A stretch of 64,000 nt of DNA from an uncultured Roseivirga sp. (lineage in GTDB: Bacteria > Bacteroidota > Bacteroidia > Cytophagales > Cyclobacteriaceae). Shown piece after piece: positions 215 to 35,347 of the stretch; position 1 is the stretch's first letter, and each line of letters opens with the position of its first letter. Under the pieces are notes generated by a model that had not been told where the DNA came from, made no database searches, and saw nothing but the letters and a program-made list of their open reading frames with translations. The stretch lies in NCBI GenBank assembly GCA_947493005.1, contig CANLOY010000006.1, positions 1 to 64,000 on the forward strand, in the 5' to 3' direction. The position numbers and the translations under genes were made by a program.

Positions 215-472
215 CTAAGTCAAATCGGATTTGAGATTCCTCAATGCTATTTTCAGGTCTTGCAACAAACGATCCATCCTCTGCGCCTCTTCCACCATCT
301 CATCCAGCATAGGACGATGTTTGTTTATCACAAACGGTTCATCTCTCAATTCCTTCGCTTGCTTTTCCAAGTGCTTCAAGGTGAAAAGGAGCTCCTTAGA
401 TAGTTTTGTAACCAAAGCTGGTTCTACCGAAACTTCTGATTCAGTGTTAGTCTGATTTAGCTGTTTGTCCAT
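215..472 (-). CDS. Small acidic helical protein, function unknown
   Basis: The 85-residue product has no signal peptide or membrane segment. After a polar N-terminus (about 1-20) it is predicted by eye to be almost wholly helical: alternating Leu, Glu and Lys with heptad-like spacing (residues 22-45 and 58-82) suggest a short coiled coil or helical hairpin. A purine-rich GAAGAGGAG abuts the ATG. A terminator follows at 108-132. The gene lies 115 bases downstream of the two-component regulator on the same strand, so it may be the tail of that transcript, or separate. I recognise no family. The open frame, terminator and sensible start make it likely real. Confidence 0.65.
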   Translation of the reverse strand: MDKQLNQTNTESEVSVEPALVTKLSKELLFTLKHLEKQAKELRDEPFVINKHRPMLDEMVEEAQRMDRLLQDLKIALRNLKSDLT

Positions 473-587
473 CTCCTCTTCCTCACTTCAATTACACTAC
501 AAAGGTATGGTGAGGCAAAAGACTAGAAATCAGTCGAATACCTAAATAATAGAATAGGCGATTCCCTTACTCGGAATTAATACCCAA

Positions 588-1244
588 TCAAAACTCTTCA
601 AAAAGCTGATTATCTATGGCATAAATGACCAGCCCTGCTACATTCTTACTCCCTGTTTTTTCCAATAGGTTTCTTTTGTGTGCTTCAACAGTTCTTGGGC
701 TAATGAAGAGCTCTTCGGCAATTTCCTGATTCGATTTTTGTCTAAGAATGAAGTGCAGGATTTCTTTTTCGCGTTGGGTGAGCACAATCACTAATTGATT
801 AAGGGCTTTTTTTCCGCTCCCTCTTAGCTTATTCATAATCACTCCGGTAACTTCTGCTGAATAATACTGACCTCCCTGAGCAACAAGGTCGATTGCTTGC
901 CTGAGTTCAGCCTTACTGGCATTCTTCAATACATAGCCCATCACGCCCAACTGGAGCATTCTTTTAATAAACTGTGCTTCGCTGAACATGCTCAATACAA
1001 TAATTTTCTGATCTGGTTTTTCCAGTCTGAGCTTTTTGACCAACTCAATACCATCCATTATCGGCATTTGAATATCCGTCAATAAAATATCGACATCCAT
1101 TTTCATCAGTTGATTGTATGCATCTATACCATTTGATGCCACTCCCTTTATTTCATACAATGATGTATCGTCCAGATAGCCCAATAGACCATCTTTGATC
1201 ATTGGATGGTCATCAACAATAAAAATACTGGTAGGCGTGCTCAT
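588..1244 (-). CDS. LuxR/NarL-family response regulator
   Basis: Cytoplasmic DNA-binding response regulator of 218 residues. The receiver domain (about 6-122) has the acidic pair DD at 11-12, the phosphoacceptor Asp57 (TDIQMPIMDG context), and a conserved Lys near residue 106 (VLKNA). The LuxR-type helix-turn-helix (about 152-215) carries the typical LTQREKEIL and NQEIAEELFISPRTVEAHK signatures. It starts two bases after the stop of the upstream kinase gene, so the pair is surely co-transcribed and the kinase is its partner by position. Targets cannot be read from the sequence. The length is normal for NarL-type regulators. Confidence 0.93.
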   Translation of the reverse strand: MSTPTSIFIVDDHPMIKDGLLGYLDDTSLYEIKGVASNGIDAYNQLMKMDVDILLTDIQMPIMDGIELVKKLRLEKPDQKIIVLSMFSEAQFIKRMLQLGVMGYVLKNASKAELRQAIDLVAQGGQYYSAEVTGVIMNKLRGSGKKALNQLVIVLTQREKEILHFILRQKSNQEIAEELFISPRTVEAHKRNLLEKTGSKNVAGLVIYAIDNQLFEEF

Positions 1245-1246
1245 TT

Positions 1247-3226
1247 TTAATCTATTATAGGTATTAATGCGATTACACTTGTGCCATGATCTGGTGTAGA
1301 ATCAATGGTAAGATTTCCTGACAAGGCACTTATTCTGCTTTTCATACTTGTTAAACCAAAGCCTGTTTTATAAAAATCCAGTTTGTTTTTATCAAAGCCT
1401 ACTCCATCATCCTCAACCATCAACTGTACACCTTCTTCAATTCTGATTAGCTGAACATTTACATGTTTAGCCTTTGACGATTTCCAAACATTATTCAGTG
1501 CTTCCTGAACAATCCGAAACAATCCTATTTCTATTTTACTATCTAAACGTCCTCTAAGGTTGCAATAATAATTACACGCTATTCCAGAAGCTTCTTGTAA
1601 CTCCGACACCAAATCTTGTAATGCTTTATCTAAACCCATTTTTTCTATCGACTTGGGCATCACCCTATGCGCTATACTTCTGCTTTCCTTGATTCCCTTT
1701 TCCAAGAATTCCTTGCTCTTCTCAAAACGCTCCTGGCAACTCCTGGATAAATTTTCTATTTCATCATCCAGATATTGTAAGTTCAAAGCGCTCACCCCTA
1801 AAGTTTGTTGCAACCCGTCATGCAAATCCGAAGCAATGCGCTTTCTCTCCTCATTTTCAGCATTGTAAATCGCTTGACTCTGCTCTTCATGGTTTTTAAC
1901 CATAGGACTAATATCAAAAATGCACCCCTCCAGGGCATCTAGCTCTCCATTCTCACCAAAAACACCATTTCCCTGTTCCCATAGCCATTTTTCCTTGCCC
2001 TCTCTATTGATAATTCGATATACTACTCTGAAGGATTCTTTATTTCTGACACAACGTTGGACCTGCTCCCATACATCTGCCTGATCATCTGAGTGAATCA
2101 AATCTCCAAATGCAACCGAACTAGACATTCCATAAAACGCTTCTGCATCATATCCTGTAATAACTTTGCAAGCCGCACTGATGTATTCCATAGACCATTT
2201 CTGATCGTTTAAGCAGCGATAAACCATACCAGGTAAATTATTAACCAGATCGTCCATCCTTCTATGGGTTTCTTTAAGAGCCATTTCAGCTTCTTTCCGA
2301 TCATGTATATCCTCATGGCTACCTACTACTCTTACAGGTAATCCATCTTCATCCCACTGTGCTTGCCCAGTAGACTTGAACCATCTGTATTTACCACTCT
2401 TTGTTTTCAATCGAAACTCTACCTCATAAGGAGTTTTATCATTCAGGTGGTTGTTAAACCTGTTGATTGCTTCAGCAGCATCACTGGGATGCACCATATC
2501 AAAGAAGTTTTCCTCTGGCGCTGGAAACTCATCAGCCTCAAACCCTAGCTGCTCATACATTCGCGGAGACCAATAGGCCTTTCCCTCCTTTGGCTGCCAA
2601 TCCCAAATTCCATCTTGAGAACCTTCTACTGCCAACTGAAATCTCTTTCGGCTATTTTCAAGCTGTATGGTTCTTTCTTCCACTAAATGCTCGAGGTTAT
2701 CTTCCAGCCGATTTCTACAGACCGCATTGCCTATGGAATTAGCAAAAGAAAGCAGCAACAGTTTCTCAGCTACCGTCCAATTACGCTCTTGCTCAAAATC
2801 AATTAAAGCCAGAATACCCCAAAACATTCCTTCAACATTAACAGGAAAAAGAATTACAGATTTAGTTCCATCCAGTCCCATATGGGACCTGAATGCCTCG
2901 GTGCTGTCAGAAAAACGCATTTCATATGAATCGCCTTTTAACAATACCGGTAAAACATCCTTTAGAACAGTTTCATCAATATTTTGATTGCGAGCTCCTC
3001 TACCATCCAAAATCTGATTAGACCAGAAATACCGTGCTGAAGTAAGAAAATCACCTTTCGAATCCTGATGGTTAACATAGATAACTCCGGCACTAACCTT
3101 AAGTGGCTTTGCTAGGGCTTCCAAAGCCAGTTTCATCCCCACCTCTAACTTCTCAGCAATAAGGGCATTGGTAGCGTTAGCCACTCCAAAAATCAGGTGA
3201 TCAATATGCCCCTTATCTAGATTCAA
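1247..3226 (-). CDS. GAF-PAS-PAS sensor histidine kinase (HisKA_3 type)
   Basis: Cytoplasmic sensor kinase of 659 residues with no membrane segment. Order: an N-terminal GAF-like domain (about 15-170), a short coiled coil (about 172-195), a PAS_3/PAC unit (about 195-312, YWSPRMYEQLGFEADEFP), a second PAS (about 325-445), then a NarX/DegS-type core. The phosphoacceptor His lies in ERKRIASDLHDGLQQTLG (about residue 465), the N box in EALNNVWKSSKAKH, and the nucleotide loops in VEDDGVGFD and GFGLTSMKSR. All catalytic motifs appear intact. GAF and PAS domains suggest an intracellular or redox cue, but no ligand can be named. The response regulator follows two bases downstream. Confidence 0.93.
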   Translation of the reverse strand: MNLDKGHIDHLIFGVANATNALIAEKLEVGMKLALEALAKPLKVSAGVIYVNHQDSKGDFLTSARYFWSNQILDGRGARNQNIDETVLKDVLPVLLKGDSYEMRFSDSTEAFRSHMGLDGTKSVILFPVNVEGMFWGILALIDFEQERNWTVAEKLLLLSFANSIGNAVCRNRLEDNLEHLVEERTIQLENSRKRFQLAVEGSQDGIWDWQPKEGKAYWSPRMYEQLGFEADEFPAPEENFFDMVHPSDAAEAINRFNNHLNDKTPYEVEFRLKTKSGKYRWFKSTGQAQWDEDGLPVRVVGSHEDIHDRKEAEMALKETHRRMDDLVNNLPGMVYRCLNDQKWSMEYISAACKVITGYDAEAFYGMSSSVAFGDLIHSDDQADVWEQVQRCVRNKESFRVVYRIINREGKEKWLWEQGNGVFGENGELDALEGCIFDISPMVKNHEEQSQAIYNAENEERKRIASDLHDGLQQTLGVSALNLQYLDDEIENLSRSCQERFEKSKEFLEKGIKESRSIAHRVMPKSIEKMGLDKALQDLVSELQEASGIACNYYCNLRGRLDSKIEIGLFRIVQEALNNVWKSSKAKHVNVQLIRIEEGVQLMVEDDGVGFDKNKLDFYKTGFGLTSMKSRISALSGNLTIDSTPDHGTSVIALIPIID

Positions 3227-3376
3227 TGTTTAAAAGATAAAATAGAACTCATCCTTCTTAAAAATAAAGAATAAGCCCGCCAATCATAAGCATTCGCCTT
3301 ACTTAAATTAACAATCTTTAACGCAAGTAAATAGTAAGGTATTGACAAACGGTGTTAATAAAGTATCGAGCTTCCT

Positions 3377-3384
3377 TATATTTG
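3377..3384 (+). promoter_or_regulatory. Bacteroidota -7 promoter element upstream of batB
   Basis: TATATTTG matches TAnnTTTG, the known -7 motif for the primary sigma factor in this phylum. Transcription would begin near 3390. This argues that batB starts at ATG 3406 rather than at an in-frame GTG at 3352, which lies upstream of the element. No clear -33 box is seen at the usual spacing. Confidence 0.5.
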
Positions 3385-3405
3385 CTTGTTGTTCTAAGAG
3401 TAGTT

Positions 3406-4374
3406 ATGACCTGGTTTAAAAGTATTGGATTAGAAGAAGGGATTTTTGTCGGTTTGTTCGTGCTGGCCTACTTGATATATACCTTTCGTTTGATCACTGT
3501 TGCGAAACGGATGAACACTACTTTCAGACCGCTTTTATTCAAGATGCTCATAAGGTCTCTTGCACTCGCCCTTTTGATTATTGCCTTACTTGGTCCTTCT
3601 TTTGGGGAAACAACTAAAGAGGTTAAATCTGAAGGAAAAGATATTTACGTAGCGGTTGACCTTTCTCAATCCATGAATGCCTTTGATGTTCAACCAACAC
3701 GATTAGAAAAAGTCAAATATGAGCTTAAGAAAATCGTAGAAGCTTTTAACTCAGACCGAATTGGCTTAATCATCTTTTCTTCAGAGGCATTTGTGCAATG
3801 TCCGCTGACTTACGACCAAAGCGCATTAAACCTTTTTATTAATACGCTAAATACTGGCCTGGTACCTAATGCCGGTACCGATTTTGGTTCCCCTCTTAAC
3901 ATTGCTCTTGAAAAGCTAGAAGAATCTGAGAGCCCTGTAACTCAACAAAAAGCCAGAATCGTTTTAATGATCAGTGACGGAGAAGATTTTGGTGACGAAA
4001 CTGATGAAGCGGTCGACAAAATAGTCAAATCAGGAGTTCAGCTTTTTGCCTTAGGTGTTGGTACAGAAAAAGGCTCCAAGATCAGACAGGGAAATGCTTA
4101 CAAAAGAGATAGAGAAGGCTCTGATGTAGTAACTAAATTGAACTCCAAGTCGTTGAGAAAACTAGCTGTAGATACTGGCGGTAAGTATTTCGAGATTAAC
4201 GAAAGCCAAAATGACGTTAATCGCCTGATAAGGGCCATTAATGAAGTTGAAGGTGAATTGCGAGATGCCCGGGTGATAGACGCTTCCGCTAATAAGTTTT
4301 ATTACTTTTTAATTGCTGCTATTGCGCTGATCTTACTGGACGCAATGATTAGAAGAAAGACATTGAGAATATGA
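3406..4374 (+). CDS. batB: BatB-like von Willebrand factor A membrane protein
   Basis: Membrane-anchored VWA protein of 322 residues, a member of the Bacteroidota aerotolerance (Bat) proteins. Two N-terminal hydrophobic segments (about 10-28 and 45-63) precede the VWA domain (about 78-275) and a C-terminal membrane segment (about 297-315). The metal-binding MIDAS is complete: DLSQS (DxSxS), a Thr in PNAGTDFG, and Asp in MISDGED. I chose ATG 3406 because a -7 promoter element lies at 3377-3384; a GTG at 3352 would add 18 residues. It overlaps the next gene by ATGA. The moxR, DUF58, batA, batD and batE genes usual in this operon are not next to it. The role in stress tolerance is family knowledge. 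Confidence 0.88.
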   Translation: MTWFKSIGLEEGIFVGLFVLAYLIYTFRLITVAKRMNTTFRPLLFKMLIRSLALALLIIALLGPSFGETTKEVKSEGKDIYVAVDLSQSMNAFDVQPTRLEKVKYELKKIVEAFNSDRIGLIIFSSEAFVQCPLTYDQSALNLFINTLNTGLVPNAGTDFGSPLNIALEKLEESESPVTQQKARIVLMISDGEDFGDETDEAVDKIVKSGVQLFALGVGTEKGSKIRQGNAYKRDREGSDVVTKLNSKSLRKLAVDTGGKYFEINESQNDVNRLIRAINEVEGELRDARVIDASANKFYYFLIAAIALILLDAMIRRKTLRI

Positions 4375-5327
4375 AGTACGTATTGAGCATTATCCTTCTG
4401 TTTACAAGTTTCACTGACCCTGTTACAAAAATTGCCAAGGTCAACAAGTTGAAAAAAGCAGCTAGTAGAGCTTACGCAGATGGTGACTTTGAATCGGCTA
4501 TCCAATCGTACAATGAACTTCTTGATTCCTTAGAAGTAGATGATGATAAAGCCCGGTTAAACCTGGCAAATGCTGCATATATTATGTCATATGGAGGGGA
4601 TAATATGGGGCTACTCAACGATATAAGCTCTGGTAATAAAATGATTGAGGATACTGCTGCTTTGAATGCCATAAGTGGTGATCTTCAGTATTTTGATATT
4701 GCTGAAAGGAACTATAATGATGTAAAAGAAAGTAGTGACAACCTATTAGCCTCTATGGCTCACAACCAATTAGGTGTCATTTCATATAAAATGGGAGAAC
4801 AATCTCCTGATGAGAAAGAGTCTTTTACTCAATCCGCTCTGAAAAACTTCAAAGAGGCATTAAGGAAAAACCCACAGAACGATCAAGCTAGATACAACTA
4901 TGAGTTGTTAAAGAAACTCATTCGTCAACAAGAAAAGCAACAACAGCAGGATCAGGATCAAAACAAAGACCAACAACAAGAGCAAGACAAGAAAGATCAA
5001 GAGCAAAAGGACCAGGACAAGAAAGACCAGGAACAGAATAAAGACAAGCAAGACCAGGAAAAAAAGGATCAGGAGCAGAAAGAGCAGGAAAATCAAGAGC
5101 AGAAAAAAGACGATAAAAAGGGTCAGGAAAATCAGGAGCAAAAGGAGGGTGAAGAAAAAAAGGATGACCCTATGGAGAAGCTCAAAGAGAAACTAAAAGA
5201 AATGAACATCCCTTTGGAAAAAGCTCAGATGATTCTTGAGGCCATGAAGAACAACGAGACCCAGTATGTTCAGCAGAAAAAACGTAAGGCCACACAGCGT
5301 AGAGACAGCAGCAAACCTGATTGGTAG
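4371..5327 (+). CDS. batC: BatC-like TPR protein with a Lys/Asp/Gln/Glu-rich tail
   Basis: The 318-residue product starts with a hydrophobic segment (1-16) that may be a signal peptide or anchor. TPR-like repeats follow (about 20-180), ending in the typical NPQNDQARYNYELLKK element. A striking low-complexity stretch (about 185-265) is built almost only of Q, D, K, E and N in DQEQKK-type repeats, then comes a short conserved C-terminus (about 268-318, ending in RRDSSKPDW). This order, TPR then charged linker then short tail, is that of BatC/BatE partners of BatB. It overlaps batB by four bases, so translation is coupled. The repeat-rich DNA (4922-5160) is prone to length change. Confidence 0.82.
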   Translation: MKYVLSIILLFTSFTDPVTKIAKVNKLKKAASRAYADGDFESAIQSYNELLDSLEVDDDKARLNLANAAYIMSYGGDNMGLLNDISSGNKMIEDTAALNAISGDLQYFDIAERNYNDVKESSDNLLASMAHNQLGVISYKMGEQSPDEKESFTQSALKNFKEALRKNPQNDQARYNYELLKKLIRQQEKQQQQDQDQNKDQQQEQDKKDQEQKDQDKKDQEQNKDKQDQEKKDQEQKEQENQEQKKDDKKGQENQEQKEGEEKKDDPMEKLKEKLKEMNIPLEKAQMILEAMKNNETQYVQQKKRKATQRRDSSKPDW

Positions 5328-29987: not shown

Positions 29988-30021
29988 AGAAGTTGGGTTA
30001 TGAAAGCCATGCCCAACTTCT
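29988..30021. terminator. Hairpin between convergent lipoprotein and hydrolase-like genes
   Basis: AGAAGTTGGG (29988-29997) pairs perfectly with CCCAACTTCT (30012-30021) across a 14-base loop. It covers the 3' end of the minus-strand gene. T residues after it are sparse (TGTTCTTT). Confidence 0.6.
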
Positions 30022-30933
30022 GTTCTTTACTTTTAATGTGGCCATGGCCCTGAACTTGTAACTATTTTTTATCTGCTCCCAGGTCCACACTCCCGGCAAC
30101 TCCCACCAGTTTTCAGGTGGTCTGTGATTGAATGCGGCAGCCATACCTATTTTTCTGAATCCCACACCATTTAAACCAAAGGCCTTATTGGATTCTAAGG
30201 TCAACACCTTATCGCTTTCTTTATGATGATCAACAATAATAAAAGTGTGGCCTCCCGTCCATTGCGTTTTCCAGCCTTGCACCAAAGTCCATGGATCAGG
30301 TGCTGCCTCTACATCAGTAACCGACTTTCCCATTCCACTCTCAATAGCCGCAGTTACCGGTGAGAAGTAGTCATCTGCAGAATAAATCATCATCTGCCCA
30401 TGCCGCTTGTTATTCCACTCAAAATCGGGAAAACTATCCATCCATGCCTTCACAGTCAAACCTTCGACAAACGTACAGCAGTTATTCTGTAGTGGTGGAG
30501 TTTGAGGTACGTTAATTCCTTTCAGATTGAACGGATATGTTGGATTATGCAAATCATAAGTAAACCCATCAAATGCCTGAACCAGTGAAGTAAGTTCAGA
30601 TTCTTCAATAGCATCGATATCGCTATCAAAATTCACTCTACTGAGCGCGCCTAAAACATCATTATTGTTTACTGTTGAAGTTATACTTCCTTCCTCGGAA
30701 GCTGCTGAACTCACCTCGGTATAACTCGTATCTTTCCAGCGCGCACAAACCCACACCTCACCCAACTCAGGTGATTCAATTAATGCATAGTCAGTATCTG
30801 CATTGGGAAAGTCCTTTTTGAATTCTTTCAGCTTAAAACTTCCGGCATCCACAAAGCCTTTACTTTCAGAACTTGTGTCGGCATTAAGAAAGCTTTTGAG
30901 CCTCTTTTTAAGCGTTATTCTATCGGTAGACAT
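29998..30933 (-). CDS. Putative papain-fold (NlpC/P60-like) hydrolase beside the MNIO locus
   Basis: A 311-residue product using ATG 30933; an upstream ATG at 31017 would add 28 residues without making a signal peptide. The C-terminal half shows a pattern typical of NlpC/P60-like cysteine hydrolases: a Cys pair at a helix start (NNCCTFVEGL, about 151-160), a His in a strand (GGHTFIIVDHH, His at about 229) and a polar residue in the next strand (LTLESN). The N-terminal half is charged and unrecognised. It faces away from the ferritin-like gene across a 270-base gap. Assignment rests on motif order by eye only; peptide or amide cleavage is inference. Confidence 0.55.
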   Translation of the reverse strand: MSTDRITLKKRLKSFLNADTSSESKGFVDAGSFKLKEFKKDFPNADTDYALIESPELGEVWVCARWKDTSYTEVSSAASEEGSITSTVNNNDVLGALSRVNFDSDIDAIEESELTSLVQAFDGFTYDLHNPTYPFNLKGINVPQTPPLQNNCCTFVEGLTVKAWMDSFPDFEWNNKRHGQMMIYSADDYFSPVTAAIESGMGKSVTDVEAAPDPWTLVQGWKTQWTGGHTFIIVDHHKESDKVLTLESNKAFGLNGVGFRKIGMAAAFNHRPPENWWELPGVWTWEQIKNSYKFRAMATLKVKNRSWAWLS

Positions 30934-31205
30934 ATAACGTGGTGTGTTTAAAGTGTGAACTAATAATATAGGGTAATTTAAACCATTTATATGAACCGAG
31001 AAAGATGCTGTACCCATTTCAATAATTGTTATATACAGTCATTCTGGCTCTAGTGGTTGAAATTTGGTTGTTTTCAGCCAGTAAAAAACAGGCTTCAGCG
31101 CTTTACAATGATTATCAAAAAACATAAATTGGATAATTACTTCAGAGCTTGTCGAGATTGACATTTTCTGAACACTGTTAATTACACACACTTTAACTTT
31201 TTACA

Positions 31206-32789
31206 ATGAACACACCCTTTAAGGCTCCCAAGTTGCTTGGGGATGAATCTGTTGTCACCAAGGAGAATTTTCCTGAAGCGATCCAACAGGCTATTGGTAT
31301 TGAAATAGCCACGATACCCGTTTACCTCTTTACATATTATAGTATAAATCGTACTCCTTCTGAAGATGTACTAAAAAAGCAGCTATATGATAAGTTAGTA
31401 GCCTCTGGCAAGGACTACACGCAAGCTGAGTTAGATAATTATGTAAAAGAACTGAATGCCGATATTCAGGTATTTGCCAACAAGGCTGGCGCTATGGTAA
31501 TGAGTGTAGCAATTGAAGAAATGCTGCATATGTCATTATCATCAAATGTAATGCAAGCCATAGTTGGTAATCCAAAACATGTGGGACAAGCGCCCAATTC
31601 CTGGCCTGCATACCTTCCTGGGCATAACCCTGAATTTCCTATTAATCGGGGTAAGTTATCACTTAGAACGCTGTACACTTTCTTACAAATAGAATCTCCA
31701 TTTTCTATTGAACCTGTTGAAGGAGACCCAGACTCAAACTCATTCAAGGCACTTAATTACACAACCATTGGAGAGTTCTATTACCAGATTGAGCGTTACG
31801 TATGTAGTTTATCATCAGGCGATTTTAACACAGAAAGGCCGCAATTAATCCCTGGTAAGGGTTTCTATACTCCTAACACTGTTGACACGATTTACTACGA
31901 CAGAGAGCACCAGGCCAAAATGGAAAATGCCGGTGATAGCGGAGGTTTGGTTTATGTAACAGATGCTAAGTCGGCTATAAAGGCGATGGAAGAAATTGTT
32001 GAGCAAGGTGAAGGATACAGCGATGATCCAAGAGACCCATGTGCTGGTTTAGCCGAGCCAGAGCCTCAACAAACGGAAACGGATAAAGGACTAAACCCTA
32101 ATGGCACTGTAAAGTGTACTCCGCCATCTCCTGACAATACAGATAATCCAGAACACACTGAAGCTTCTCACTATGAAAAGTTCAACGAGATTTTCTGTGA
32201 GTACCATGAATTGAAAAACAAGTTTGCAGAACTCATGGGAGTTGCTCCTGATTTGAATCCTGAATATATGGATGCTAATCTTCAAGGATATTTTAACCCT
32301 GATGATTGTAAGGACTTCAACTCTGCTGCCGAACAGTTATTTCAATCATTCTTTGTAATCGATATTGAAAAGAACCCTTCAACAATGGATTACGATACAC
32401 CAGCGGCCAGAGCAGTTTCTGATTTCACCAATGCAATGTACTCTTACTTGTATGTAATGACAGAAAACTGTTACAAAAGGAAAGGGAATACTCAATATGA
32501 AATATTCATGTTCGGGATTCACAAAAGTATGATCTTCATTCTTAACTCGGTCTGTGGTGAGTTAACAGCTCTGACTTACAAGAAGAATGGGAAAACATAC
32601 AACTGTGCACCAACATTCGAGGAGTTTGAATTCAATACTTATTCAAGTCCTAAATCACAGGTAGTAAAAGCTTATGAAAATGCTGTGGAATTATATCCTG
32701 GTATAAGCTACATGGGTCAAAGAGTTCACGATCTGCCAGATGTACCATTGGATCCATACACTACACCTGAAAAACCTGTAACCTTTTAA
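31206..32789 (+). CDS. VioB-like ferritin-fold protein heading the MNIO cluster
   Basis: A 527-residue soluble protein. The N-terminal third is a ferritin-like four-helix domain (about 20-240) of the type found in VioB/iminophenylpyruvate dimer synthase: Glu33 in IGIEIATIPVYL and Glu104, Glu105 and His108 in AIEEMLHM are plausible metal ligands. The C-terminal half (about 290-527) has a Pro/Glu/Thr linker, then a helical domain with several Cys. No signal peptide. It is 23 bases upstream of the cysteine-rich gene, so it is in the same run. Established: ferritin-like domains of this group occur in biosynthetic enzymes. Inference: it acts on or with the Cys-rich product. Confidence 0.8.
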   Translation: MNTPFKAPKLLGDESVVTKENFPEAIQQAIGIEIATIPVYLFTYYSINRTPSEDVLKKQLYDKLVASGKDYTQAELDNYVKELNADIQVFANKAGAMVMSVAIEEMLHMSLSSNVMQAIVGNPKHVGQAPNSWPAYLPGHNPEFPINRGKLSLRTLYTFLQIESPFSIEPVEGDPDSNSFKALNYTTIGEFYYQIERYVCSLSSGDFNTERPQLIPGKGFYTPNTVDTIYYDREHQAKMENAGDSGGLVYVTDAKSAIKAMEEIVEQGEGYSDDPRDPCAGLAEPEPQQTETDKGLNPNGTVKCTPPSPDNTDNPEHTEASHYEKFNEIFCEYHELKNKFAELMGVAPDLNPEYMDANLQGYFNPDDCKDFNSAAEQLFQSFFVIDIEKNPSTMDYDTPAARAVSDFTNAMYSYLYVMTENCYKRKGNTQYEIFMFGIHKSMIFILNSVCGELTALTYKKNGKTYNCAPTFEEFEFNTYSSPKSQVVKAYENAVELYPGISYMGQRVHDLPDVPLDPYTTPEKPVTF

Positions 32790-32812
32790 TTAAAGCATTA
32801 ACACACAATATC

Positions 32813-33496
32813 ATGTTTATACTAAATAATCAAGACATCCTATTAGATAGCTGTGGTGGCAGCGGAGGTGGCTGTTCAAGCCCAAGTACTCCTAGCACAA
32901 CAGGTGAAAAGGGTGTGGTAACTACACCAATAGAACTTCATGCCTGTGCTGGGCTAAATGCCTGCAAAGGACACGATCGTTTTGGCACAAATGACTGTGC
33001 AGGCACTGGCAAGTGCGCTACGCAAATGCACGTATGCCACACGTTAAATAACTGCCGTGGTCAAGGTGGCTGCGGACTTTATGGAGACCCTGAAGAACAA
33101 TGCAAGCCCGCAGCCAATAGCTGTTCTTGGCAAGGAAGCTGTGCTACTCCAATCCAGCGAGAAAGGATAAGTACCGCAGGGCCAAACGCTGGAAAAAGTA
33201 CCTGGCTACTAGCAAGAAAGTTGTTTGAAGAAAGAATGACTGACTCAAAAAGAACAATTGGTGATTCACCTTTTCCTGCTGGGCCTCCTCAGGCATGGCT
33301 CAATGCCGTTTCTGCCACCGGAGAGTATGATTCTTGTGGAAACAGTGGAAACAAGTATTGTTCTTTTGGGTACAACAACCCTGAAGTTCCCATTAAGGAA
33401 ATGATTGACAAGAGTATGGCTGAAATGCCTGAAACCCTGAAAGATTGCGCATGTACTGATGCCAAAGAAAATCAGGAAAGTAAAGCACAAGGATAA
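32813..33496 (+). CDS. Cysteine-rich putative MNIO substrate (RiPP-precursor-like)
   Basis: A 227-residue soluble product with 16 cysteines and no signal peptide. A short head (1-13) leads to SCGGSGGGC and a Ser/Thr/Pro spacer, then a core (45-110) with Cys at 45, 51, 62, 68, 75, 81, 87, 97, 104 and 110: five C-x5-C steps, as in CAGLNACKG and CHTLNNC. A C-terminal domain (115-227) holds Cys 175, 183, 212 and 214 and a Trp/Pro-rich section. It lies directly between the ferritin-like and MNIO genes, and Cys-rich proteins beside MNIO genes are the usual substrates. Differences from known bufferins: larger, cytoplasmic start, C-terminal domain. It may instead be a metal-binding protein. Confidence 0.78.
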   Translation: MFILNNQDILLDSCGGSGGGCSSPSTPSTTGEKGVVTTPIELHACAGLNACKGHDRFGTNDCAGTGKCATQMHVCHTLNNCRGQGGCGLYGDPEEQCKPAANSCSWQGSCATPIQRERISTAGPNAGKSTWLLARKLFEERMTDSKRTIGDSPFPAGPPQAWLNAVSATGEYDSCGNSGNKYCSFGYNNPEVPIKEMIDKSMAEMPETLKDCACTDAKENQESKAQG

Positions 33497-33527
33497 GTAT
33501 TTCTCAGATTCAGTTAATAATAATGTC

Positions 33528-33556
33528 CATATCACTTTCATACGGAAGGTGATATG
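33528..33556 (+). other. Intercistronic hairpin between substrate and MNIO genes
   Basis: CATATCACTTTC (33528-33539) pairs with GAAGGTGATATG (33545-33556) with one G-T pair and a loop of five bases. It sits in the 76-base gap after the Cys-rich gene and 16 bases before the MNIO start. TTTTA follows but no long T run, so it could act as a partial terminator or message-processing site that lowers enzyme expression relative to substrate. Confidence 0.55.
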
Positions 33557-33572
33557 ACTTTTACCTAAAGAA

Positions 33573-34511
33573 ATGAACCGAAACCTACTTGACAAAATCA
33601 TCGCAGAACTACCCAACCTTGGCTTAGGGCTAGGGCTGCGTAGCCAACACTTTAAGCACATAACAGAAACCAAACCTAAGGTTGACTGGTTCGAGATAAT
33701 TTCAGAGAACTTTATGGACTCAGGAGGCAGACCGGGATACTTTCTGGATCAAATAGTGGAACATTACCCTATTGTAATGCATGGTGTTTCCTTATCAATC
33801 GGGAGCACAGATTCATTAGACTTTAACTACCTTAAGAAATTAAAAAAATTGGCCTCCGAGGTAAATCCAAAGTGGATCAGCGATCACCTTTGCTGGACAG
33901 GTGTTCTGGGGCTGAATACTCATGACCTGTTGCCGGTTCCCTTAACTGAAGAAAGCCTAAAACACATTTGCAATAGAATAAATACTGTTCAGGATTTCTT
34001 AGAACGGCCATTGATTCTTGAAAATCCAAGTACATATCTTAGCTTTCAGCATTCCACAATCCATGAAGCCGATTTTCTAAGGTTAATGACTGAAGAAACA
34101 GGATGTGGTCTTTTATTGGATGTAAACAATGTCTACGTCACCTGTTTCAATAATGAAATTGATCCCATTGAGTACATAGAAAAATTACCTCATGAACAAG
34201 TTGTTCAAATGCACCTTGCTGGTCATTTGCATTGTGGAACGCATATTGTAGATACACACGACAGTCATGTGATTGACAGCGTCTGGGAGCTTTTCCGTTT
34301 TGCATGGAAAAAAACCGGTGGATGCGCTGTTTTACTCGAATGGGACAACCATATCCCCTCCTTTGATGAATACCATGCAGAAGTATTAAAGGCAAAGAAC
34401 TACATGTCGGGAGAAATGGGAAAAGTAAATATGGATACTCCTGAAATACAACAGACAGAAGTTTCCAATCCGGTTAGCTTTATGGTTCCAGAGATAATTC
34501 AAGAAATATGA
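33573..34511 (+). CDS. MNIO-family (DUF692) multinuclear iron oxidase
   Basis: TIM-barrel oxidase of 312 residues. Metal ligands typical of the family are present: His in IVMHGVSLSIG, Asp/His in WISDHLCWTG, Glu in LILENPSTY, Asp in LLLDVNNVYV, His in QMHLAGH, Asp/His in DTHDSHV, and Glu in LLEWDNHIP. MNIOs (MbnB, TglH, BufB, HvfB) use two or three irons and O2 to rework peptide cysteines into oxazolone-thioamide, 5-thiooxazole or related groups. The neighbouring Cys-rich protein is the likely substrate and the overlapping DUF2063 gene (ATGA) is the likely recognition partner. The chemistry here is unknown. Confidence 0.92.
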   Translation: MNRNLLDKIIAELPNLGLGLGLRSQHFKHITETKPKVDWFEIISENFMDSGGRPGYFLDQIVEHYPIVMHGVSLSIGSTDSLDFNYLKKLKKLASEVNPKWISDHLCWTGVLGLNTHDLLPVPLTEESLKHICNRINTVQDFLERPLILENPSTYLSFQHSTIHEADFLRLMTEETGCGLLLDVNNVYVTCFNNEIDPIEYIEKLPHEQVVQMHLAGHLHCGTHIVDTHDSHVIDSVWELFRFAWKKTGGCAVLLEWDNHIPSFDEYHAEVLKAKNYMSGEMGKVNMDTPEIQQTEVSNPVSFMVPEIIQEI

Positions 34512-35347
34512 ATGATGAATTATCACTTCAGGCTACTCAAAAGTGGATGCAACAGATTTTAATATCTCCTCTGACCTTTGATACCGATCCCTCCTTTTTT
34601 TTACCAACCGAGTACAGAGATGATCTGGAAAAAATAATAGCACCAAACAAAAGACTAAGTGGAAAACAAAGGTTGGAAATTTACCAAAACAGTTATCTGG
34701 CTCGGCTAAGAGACTGTATGGAAAAACAGTTTACTGCCTTGAAACATGCATTAGGATCAGAAATATTTCAGGCTTTTGCCGATGACTACCTTCAACGTTA
34801 CCCCTCTACCAGTTACACATTAAATACACTTGGAGATCGACTTGCTCAATTCCTAAATGAAACTCGTCCCGACAGAGACCTACCTGATGATAAAAAAGAA
34901 GAATGGCCGGGCTTTATCATAGAACTTGTCAAATTTGAATTTGCCATTAATAAAATATTTGATGCCATACTAAATAGTGATTTCGAGTATGCCACACCAA
35001 AGACACCAGATTATGAATTGGATTTAGTTGATTCTTTAAAATTGTTTTCGTTTCAATTTCCAGTCAATCAATACTATCAGGATATTTTAAAAGGCAACTC
35101 TCCTCAACTGCCCCTCTCAAAACCAACGTTTACGGCAATTCTGAGAAAGAAGAGCTTTCAAATAGGACTGCTGGACTTAAATCATTCTCAATACCAGTTT
35201 CTTGTACACTGGATAGTATCAGGGAGTTTTGAAGATGCTAAATCGGCAATCATTAATTCCACTGGTGATAATCACGGAAGGTTTAATCAAATATGGCCTT
35301 CATGGAAAAAATTCTTTATAGAAAACCGATTCTTGAAAGTACTTTAG
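34508..35347 (+). CDS. DUF2063 partner protein of the MNIO enzyme (BufC/HvfC-like)
   Basis: A 279-residue soluble protein. The N-terminal domain (about 1-110) matches DUF2063: LQATQKWMQQILISP, a K-R-L-S-G-K-Q-R stretch followed by LEIYQNSYLARLRDCM, then FTALKHALGSEIFQAFADDY. Its C-terminal domain (about 120-279) is the usual alpha/beta half. The start overlaps the MNIO stop, which is the standard arrangement. In related systems the partner binds the precursor and presents it to the oxidase. No DoxX-like membrane gene follows, unlike many bufferin operons. Confidence 0.9.
   Translation: MNDELSLQATQKWMQQILISPLTFDTDPSFFLPTEYRDDLEKIIAPNKRLSGKQRLEIYQNSYLARLRDCMEKQFTALKHALGSEIFQAFADDYLQRYPSTSYTLNTLGDRLAQFLNETRPDRDLPDDKKEEWPGFIIELVKFEFAINKIFDAILNSDFEYATPKTPDYELDLVDSLKLFSFQFPVNQYYQDILKGNSPQLPLSKPTFTAILRKKSFQIGLLDLNHSQYQFLVHWIVSGSFEDAKSAIINSTGDNHGRFNQIWPSWKKFFIENRFLKVL

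Follow-up and report, generated by a model that had tools for sequence, protein, structure and literature searches.

A ferritin-like protein, a cysteine-rich putative substrate, and a BufB-family MNIO are encoded by a conserved gene cassette in Bacteroidota and a gammaproteobacterium

The locus described here raises the question of what an MNIO (DUF692) enzyme makes when its putative Cys-rich substrate has no signal peptide and is encoded beside a ferritin-like protein. The window, by which we mean the whole stretch of DNA that was analyzed, comprises 64,000 nucleotides of contig CANLOY010000006.1 from an uncultured Roseivirga sp. (GenBank assembly GCA_947493005.1). The locus is a run of four genes on the forward strand of this window. 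A sequence-only reading had assigned to these genes a ferritin-like protein, a protein with 16 Cys, an MNIO, and a DUF2063 partner; all four open reading frames (ORFs) are present, and three of the products pass Pfam cut-offs. The gaps along the run are 23, 76, and -4 bases, the start of the DUF2063 gene overlapping the stop of the MNIO gene by 4 bases. The host genome (4.88 Mb) has one MNIO. The features are the following.

31206..32789, forward strand: PF12902 ferritin-like protein, 527 amino acids, with candidate di-metal ligands E33, E105, H108, E163, E269, and H322
32813..33496, forward strand: Cys-rich putative MNIO substrate, 227 amino acids, 16 Cys, without a signal peptide
32939..33154, forward strand: conserved Cys core of that protein (residues 43 to 114) with C-x5-C units, Buf2-like, the part also present in one-gene proteins
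33164..33364, forward strand: conserved C-terminal region of the Cys protein (residues 118 to 184), outside the part that aligns with Buf2
33573..34511, forward strand: MNIO (DUF692) of the BufB family, 312 amino acids, above Pfam and NCBIfam cut-offs
34508..35347, forward strand: DUF2063 partner with a PME-type 1 signature, 279 amino acids (PF09836)

The locus is a real, conserved, and distinct MNIO system that belongs with the bufferins and captophorins. Its putatively modified Cys domain forms, by our reading, part of a cytosolic ferritin-like metalloprotein, and the chemistry and function of the system we infer below. Searching among relatives for the four-gene order, as had been proposed, we counted 13 split cassettes, that is, cassettes with separate ferritin-like and Cys genes (the window, L002, L003, L004, and genomes G028, G117, G008, G010, G018, G243, G482, G343, and G316; such L and G handles are ours). 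Twelve were from Bacteroidota and one was from the gammaproteobacterium Cognaticolwellia, and one lay in the genome of Roseivirga thermotolerans, which belongs to the same genus as the window. The ferritin-like gene was directly upstream and the MNIO gene directly downstream of the Cys gene in all 13, and a DUF2063 gene came after the MNIO gene in all 12 whose contig continues (the contig of L004 ends inside the MNIO gene). Because this order recurs in 13 of 13 cassettes and the Cys proteins of the window and Cognaticolwellia are 61% identical, the four-gene run is not a product of chance. Of the 12 loci compared, at most 5 shared any gene beyond the four.

The two proteins at the head of the run also co-occurred across genomes. 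A search of 147 related genomes with the Cys protein matched 7, and a Cys profile matched 8 of 395 Bacteroidota genomes, one of which (L019) was an ordinary Buf2 bufferin and was dropped as a cassette member. The genomes with full-length relatives of the ferritin-like protein (569 to 779 bits; next score, 84.7) coincided exactly with those that have the Cys protein: 7 of the 395. Among 369 gammaproteobacterial genomes, the Cys protein had one full-length match, that of Cognaticolwellia, and the profile matched 28 at an E value of ≤0.001, including the Cognaticolwellia split cassette and a one-gene form (G661). The other 26 matches (≤28.4 bits) were excluded from the cassette counts; many of those read were Buf2 bufferins with signal peptides. 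A plasmid search with the Cys protein gave no matches.

In four further lineages, the ferritin-like part and the Cys core were joined in a single gene, followed by MNIO and DUF2063 genes.

L160 (G661, class of Cognaticolwellia): single ORF of 655 amino acids, N-terminal PF12902 match (65.5 bits) and C-terminal Cys core
L168 (G935, order of Cognaticolwellia): single ORF of 705 amino acids, N-terminal PF12902 match (78.2 bits) and C-terminal Cys core
L163 and L164 (Pseudoalteromonas piscicida 2515 and Pseudoalteromonas sp. NC201; plasmid records of 1.2 to 1.3 Mb): 775 amino acids, PF12902 match (66.8 bits in L163) and C-terminal Cys core
L159 (G037, same family as the window): ORF of 442 amino acids with most of the ferritin-like part and the Cys core

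The L159 copy is interrupted near its start, with the first helix in a separate, overlapping ORF of 109 amino acids, and PF12902 was above its cut-off in the three uninterrupted lineages. The one-gene form is rare, being present in 1 of 179 genomes in the order of Cognaticolwellia. The shared core reads H-x-C-x-G, H-x-C-x3-N-x4-[QE]-G-G-C-G, and C-x3-G-[GS]-C-[AG]-x-P-I (with a longer last spacing in L159), and the profile of the split Cys proteins matched the one-gene core of L163 with an E value of 1.5e-7. The link between the ferritin-like and Cys parts is strongly supported. Because both parts are found in one gene in four lineages, the system probably yields a ferritin-like metalloprotein of which one domain or subunit is modified by the MNIO, rather than a metal-binding peptide on its own.

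The Cys-rich proteins of the split cassettes had 192 to 228 amino acids and 13 to 19 Cys, and 11 Cys were invariant across nine aligned members, the window included. The C-x5-C units of the window protein begin at residues 45, 62, 75, 81, and 104, and five core units were common to all 13 split members. The window protein had no Pfam match, and its match to NCBIfam BufA2 (NF050166; window protein only) was below the cut-off of 60 (25.7 bits; E value, 9.4e-6). A profile comparison with one Buf2 bufferin (L132) gave an E value of 1.7e-6, with five of the six Buf2 Cys in register and extra Cys added. The C-terminal domain that the sequence-only reading had pointed out corresponds to a region (residues 118 to 184 in the window) that is conserved in split forms and not kept in one-gene forms; its invariant columns among the nine aligned members are R118, G123, S129, W131, A134, R135, F138, G157, P158, C175, G176, S178, G179, C183, and S184. 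The reported lack of a signal peptide in the 227-residue substrate extended to the whole group when judged by hydropathy rather than SignalP: among the first 40 residues, the highest Kyte-Doolittle mean over 12 consecutive residues was ≤1.07 in all 13 split members, versus ≥1.76 in six Buf2 signal-peptide controls. In L056 and L058, we took as start the ATG corresponding to that of L057; the longest frames of these two, which open at a TTG inside the ferritin-like gene, would give 1.74 and 1.25, respectively.

The MNIO of the window scored 355.7 bits against PF05114 (cut-off, 25) and 356.6 bits against NCBIfam BufB (NF050167; cut-off, 310), and all six other members scanned scored 330.4 to 359.5 bits for BufB. 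Maximum-likelihood analysis of 49 MNIOs placed those of 12 split cassettes and 4 one-gene forms in one clade (support, 97/93), within which the split (99/94) and one-gene (99/93) MNIOs each grouped together. The nearest neighbors of this clade were the Bacteroidota Buf2 MNIO of L019 and then gammaproteobacterial Buf2 MNIOs; it did not fall inside a well-studied clade with identical partners. This position, a substrate of its own, and the presence of another probable di-metal protein together bear out the earlier suggestion of a distinct MNIO subclass. It is important to note that the rows of the MNIO trees were chosen, leaving out L004 (truncated at the contig end), five remote MNIOs of Bacteroidota (L124 to L128), and matches without a locus; the long rows L123 and L162 were dropped from the 49-MNIO tree, and L137 and L161 are the same gene. 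The clade was again recovered in an earlier 50-row tree without L168 (98/90) and was kept, with weaker support (87), in a quick tree minus three long rows. The L168 MNIO forms a long branch, and its exact placement is unsure. The Cognaticolwellia genome (G532; L161 and L162) has three MNIO matches, with Buf2 and Buf1-like clusters besides its split cassette.

The window MNIO, which had been credited with all expected metal ligands, keeps the ligand motifs at the expected sites in an alignment to 3bww, and eight patterns covering the ligands were present in all 16 MNIOs of the clade (counterparts of HvfB N175, D242, and H244, plus HG, SDH, EN, H[IL]AG, and ExD). The last five are presumably ligand motifs as well, taken in part from the 3bww alignment. 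The other three are the site-3 residues named in PMC13419390 (this and other papers are cited for the sections consulted). According to PMC13097082, the catalytic Asp is followed by Phe in MNIOs of the EGKCG (Lys-Cys) type and by a second Asp in those of the Cys-Lys (Buf2) type. All 16 clade MNIOs had the motif EWD[GNSA] at this specificity site (EWDN in the window). Among the comparison rows, for which precursor types were assigned by sequence patterns and 11 of 35 were unclassified, the motif was ERDF in four of four EGKCG-type MNIOs and ERDD in 13 of 18 Buf2 MNIOs (ERDA in two, EWDE in one, and the pattern absent in two). The last position alone is not diagnostic, as some Buf2 or unclassified rows also had no Asp there (ERDA, ERDS, and ERDG), and the W was also found in L019 and the Buf1 row L162.

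The DUF2063 partner of the window scored 65.1 bits against PF09836 (cut-off, 27.2) and 52.2 bits against the HvfC family, below the cut-off of 142. The DUF2063 signature was present in all 15 partners scanned (E value, ≤0.01) and was above the gathering score in the window, L160, and L159. The C-terminal RRE-type domain NGO1945_C was matched in 2 of these 15 partners, the window's scoring 14.3 bits, under the cut-off of 27.

The ferritin-like protein of the window scored 123.4 bits against PF12902 (cut-off, 22.3), which we take to be the family of the VioB-type domain and to hold the VioB- and RebD-type proteins. It had no NCBIfam match, and hence none to a named VioB or imine dimer synthase equivalog. 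A Foldseek search with its predicted model found two chains of 3hl1 as the sole match under an E value of 0.001. The 3hl1 structure, of Caulobacter CC_0557, is itself of a PF12902 protein, with a chain of 317 amino acids versus 527 in the window protein. The candidate di-metal ligands of the ferritin-like protein are conserved. What sets it apart from PF12902 ferritin-like proteins such as VioB, RebD, and 3hl1 is its pairing with a putative MNIO substrate. As for other members of the family, fungal PF12902 genes are located near lodA/lodB amino-acid-oxidase-like genes (PMC4417212, in the part consulted). An unlinked PF12902 gene in G016 (L088, 8560-11712) adjoins a GMC oxidoreductase by Pfam, and a PF12902 gene on a Bradyrhizobium plasmid (NZ_CP126037.1, 101954-103006) overlaps an annotated GMC oxidoreductase. 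The last two neighborhoods hint at flavin oxidases as frequent partners of PF12902 proteins.

Among the closest known MNIO systems is Buf2 (BufA2/BufB2/BufC2, with a Cys-Lys captophorin), with which the cassette shares a BufB-family MNIO, a DUF2063 partner, a Cys gene just before the MNIO gene, and, in part, the six-Cys C-x-G-x-N-x-C-K-G pattern (five of the six Cys align). Unlike Buf2 bufferins, which had 84 to 157 amino acids in the six controls, the Cys proteins are longer and lack a signal peptide, and they carry extra C-x5-C units, a C-terminal region, and a ferritin-like partner or are part of a one-gene form. The MNIO motif also differs (EWD[GNSA] versus mostly ERDD). In addition, no DoxX gene lies directly after the window cassette, as had been observed; instead, a transaldolase-family gene (PF00923, 203.8 bits) follows the DUF2063 gene. 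HvfABC and FonABC (oxazolin and fontiphorin) likewise combine an MNIO with a DUF2063-type partner, but act on signal-peptide-bearing substrates composed of EGKCG repeats, and the EGKCG-type MNIOs branch elsewhere in the tree. A Bacteroidota bufferin precursor of this EGKCG type, of the ordinary kind and with a lipoprotein-like start by eye, adjoins an MNIO gene in G103 (L122, 1145-2331).

Bufferins are copper-binding peptides exported by the Sec pathway. PMC12452194 reports that partners of the DUF2063 type accompany substrates with a signal peptide and PME-type 2 partners those without one. The cassette family runs against this correlation, with a signal-peptide-less substrate and a partner with the DUF2063 signature. 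The adjamnio-I group in Table 2 of the same paper resembles the Cys protein in having no signal peptide, 122 to 293 residues, 8 to 21 Cys, and a gene before the MNIO gene, and the two may coincide (the comparison is by published description only). The partner in the main adjamnio-I organization, however, is of PME type 2 and bears no DUF2063 signature, whereas the cassette partners were DUF2063 in 15 of 15, and the adjamnio-I listing, as given in the part consulted, mentions no ferritin-like gene. The paper also proposes that proteins, too, may be MNIO targets. The fusion partners of bufferins that it lists are MerC, cytochrome c, FGE-sulfatase, and EF-hand domains, with no ferritin-like one in the sections consulted. 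A literature search covering papers without their supplements found none on an MNIO or bufferin system paired with a ferritin-like protein. The word ferritin is absent from the main text of PMC12452194 and also from PMC12636315, PMC13097082, PMC13419390, and PMC12538549; in the parts consulted, "ferritin-like" appears solely in a reference title in PMC8224329 and means Dps in PMC7907618. In two medical papers, PMC12372235 and PMC11548865, the letters MNIO stand, to judge from the titles, for something different.

Some loci carry further genes next to the cassette. The commonest (5 of 12 loci compared) was an FMP-type heme-binding beta-barrel, and amine-oxidase-like and thiamine pyrophosphate (TPP) decarboxylase genes lay directly upstream at operonic spacing in 3 of 12. 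In G343 and G316, which belong to one genus, the cassette ends a seven-gene run of beta-barrel, TPP decarboxylase, amine-oxidase-like gene, and the four cassette genes. Here, the nearest NCBIfam model to the TPP decarboxylase was indolepyruvate decarboxylase, below its cut-off, and the distant amine-oxidase-like protein, with no Pfam match at an E value of 0.01, was tied to other amine oxidases by sequence. In G117, from the window's order, a six-gene run consists of an amine oxidase (PF01593), a TPP decarboxylase, and the four genes. The beta-barrel gene adjoins the cassette on the other strand in G016, G008, and G018, and the amine oxidase and TPP decarboxylase are located elsewhere in the genome in G018 and G243. 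The beta-barrel was found in five of seven cassette genomes versus 1 of 140 others, the amine oxidase profile matched (E value, ≤1e-30) in five of seven versus 5 of 140, and the TPP decarboxylase (E value, ≤1e-40) was found in 5 of 13 cassette genomes and in 1 of 14 picked cassette-free genomes; Fisher values on such counts overstate significance, as they treat genomes that are related as if they were independent.

Separate modules of flavin adenine dinucleotide (FAD) amine oxidase and TPP decarboxylase, apart from the cassette, recurred in Bacteroidota, at L084 6638-11442 (G018), L110 7523-11270 (G007), and L109 6673-10424 (G243). An FMP-type heme-binding beta-barrel lies between oxidase and decarboxylase in the L084 module, whose oxidase matched VioA weakly (46 bits; cut-off, 600). 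Upstream of the L056 cassette on the other strand (415-4755) is a CusA/CzcA-family metal efflux resistance-nodulation-division pump (TIGR00914, 1150.7 bits), a 1,446-amino-acid ORF with a weak TolC-type match at its C-terminal end, and L055 has an Nramp-like transporter nearby, below its cut-offs. In the window, an uncharacterized ORF of 339 amino acids lies upstream of the cassette on the opposite strand (29998-31017), with no Pfam match above cut-off and no relatives among the other loci compared. An anti-phage defense library had no matches to the seven proteins scanned.

How, then, might the four genes work together? The reading that we prefer, and to which we give an even chance as a whole, is that they would form one cytosolic metalloprotein system in which an MNIO-modified Cys subunit or domain belongs to a ferritin-fold oxidase or oxygenase. 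The MNIO with its DUF2063 partner would oxidize some of the core C-x5-C cysteines, most likely to 5-thiooxazoles by analogy with the related BufB and HvfB enzymes. The Cys-rich protein would be a dedicated subunit of the ferritin-like protein, just as other bacteria have it as a domain within the ferritin-like chain, and the mature product a ferritin-fold di-metal protein with an attached soft-metal-binding, MNIO-made domain. The ferritin-like protein might then act as an oxidase or oxygenase, with the modified domain holding copper or passing electrons or metal to the di-iron site. The narrower proposal that the MNIO makes an enzyme cofactor, with thiooxazole-type groups and the di-iron center acting in concert, the former as a permanent metal or redox site, is put forward more tentatively. 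The accessory genes, the fungal PF12902 genes near lodA/lodB-like genes, and the L088 gene beside a GMC oxidoreductase lead us to favor, with moderate confidence, an enzymatic, amino-acid-related role over metal storage.

Several observations weigh against this reading. The AlphaFold2 model of the Cys protein had a mean confidence (pLDDT) of 35.7, that is, no usable fold. At position 250 (FonB numbering), the MNIOs lack the Asp that has been proposed as the partner of the substrate Lys, and therefore the Cys chosen may differ. The accessory genes are also uneven: an amine oxidase above 500 bits was present in two of seven cassette genomes versus 2 of 140, the match in G010 is partial and lies in a larger frame, and G007 has the amine oxidase/TPP decarboxylase pair without a cassette. 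In the window genome, beta-barrel (E value, ≤0.001), amine oxidase (≤1e-30), and TPP decarboxylase (≤1e-40) were not found, so these genes are not needed for the core function, and we rejected them as core genes. Finally, the one-gene arrangement, taken by itself, is also what a modifying enzyme fused to the protein that it modifies would look like.

In the two-enzyme possibility raised by the sequence-only reading, the Cys-rich protein would be the substrate of a ribosomally synthesized and posttranslationally modified peptide pathway, with the ferritin-like protein as the second oxidase that tailors it, and the one-gene forms would be enzyme-substrate fusions. Borosins offer a precedent, as their enzymes are joined to their own substrate. 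The strict linkage, the one-gene forms, and the conserved candidate di-metal ligands agree with this alternative, and a second site could reside in the C-terminal part that is conserved in the split substrate; that part, however, is not kept in one-gene forms, the accessory genes point to small molecules, and VioB and RebD act on small amino-acid-derived molecules. We consider it unlikely. Thus, of the new metal-binding product that had been envisaged, possibly made by two enzymes, the subclass stands, while a second enzyme is not required, and the one-gene forms in four lineages suggest a metalloprotein domain instead.

A cytosolic metal buffer, in which a bufferin-like domain and the ferritin-like protein bind or oxidize excess copper, iron, or another metal, appears less probable still. 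It would accord with the Buf2 homology, with the copper chelation by bufferins described in PMC12452194, and with the metal-transport genes near two of nine extended loci (L056, above cut-off, and L055, below), but these were noticed by reading, and not all other neighbors were annotated. Moreover, the only extra gene to reach 5 of 12 loci encodes a heme-binding beta-barrel and not a metal transporter, and a protein without a signal peptide does not fit the periplasmic role of a bufferin. That the locus is simply an ordinary bufferin cassette beside an unrelated ferritin gene is hardly credible: although the MNIO scores as BufB, we ruled out a plain bufferin cassette on the basis of the missing signal peptide, the BufA2 cut-off that was not reached, the separate MNIO clade, and the ferritin linkage, which includes the order in 13 of 13 cassettes, the exact co-occurrence in 7 of 395 genomes, and the four one-gene lineages.

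For the preferred reading of a ferritin-fold metalloprotein with an MNIO-modified part, the presence of split and one-gene versions in two phyla makes it directly testable. In the sections consulted of the MNIO papers that we examined, the products with described chemistry are peptides. A bufferin-like domain within a ferritin-fold metalloprotein, if true, would extend MNIO chemistry to the building of a metal or redox site in a larger protein.

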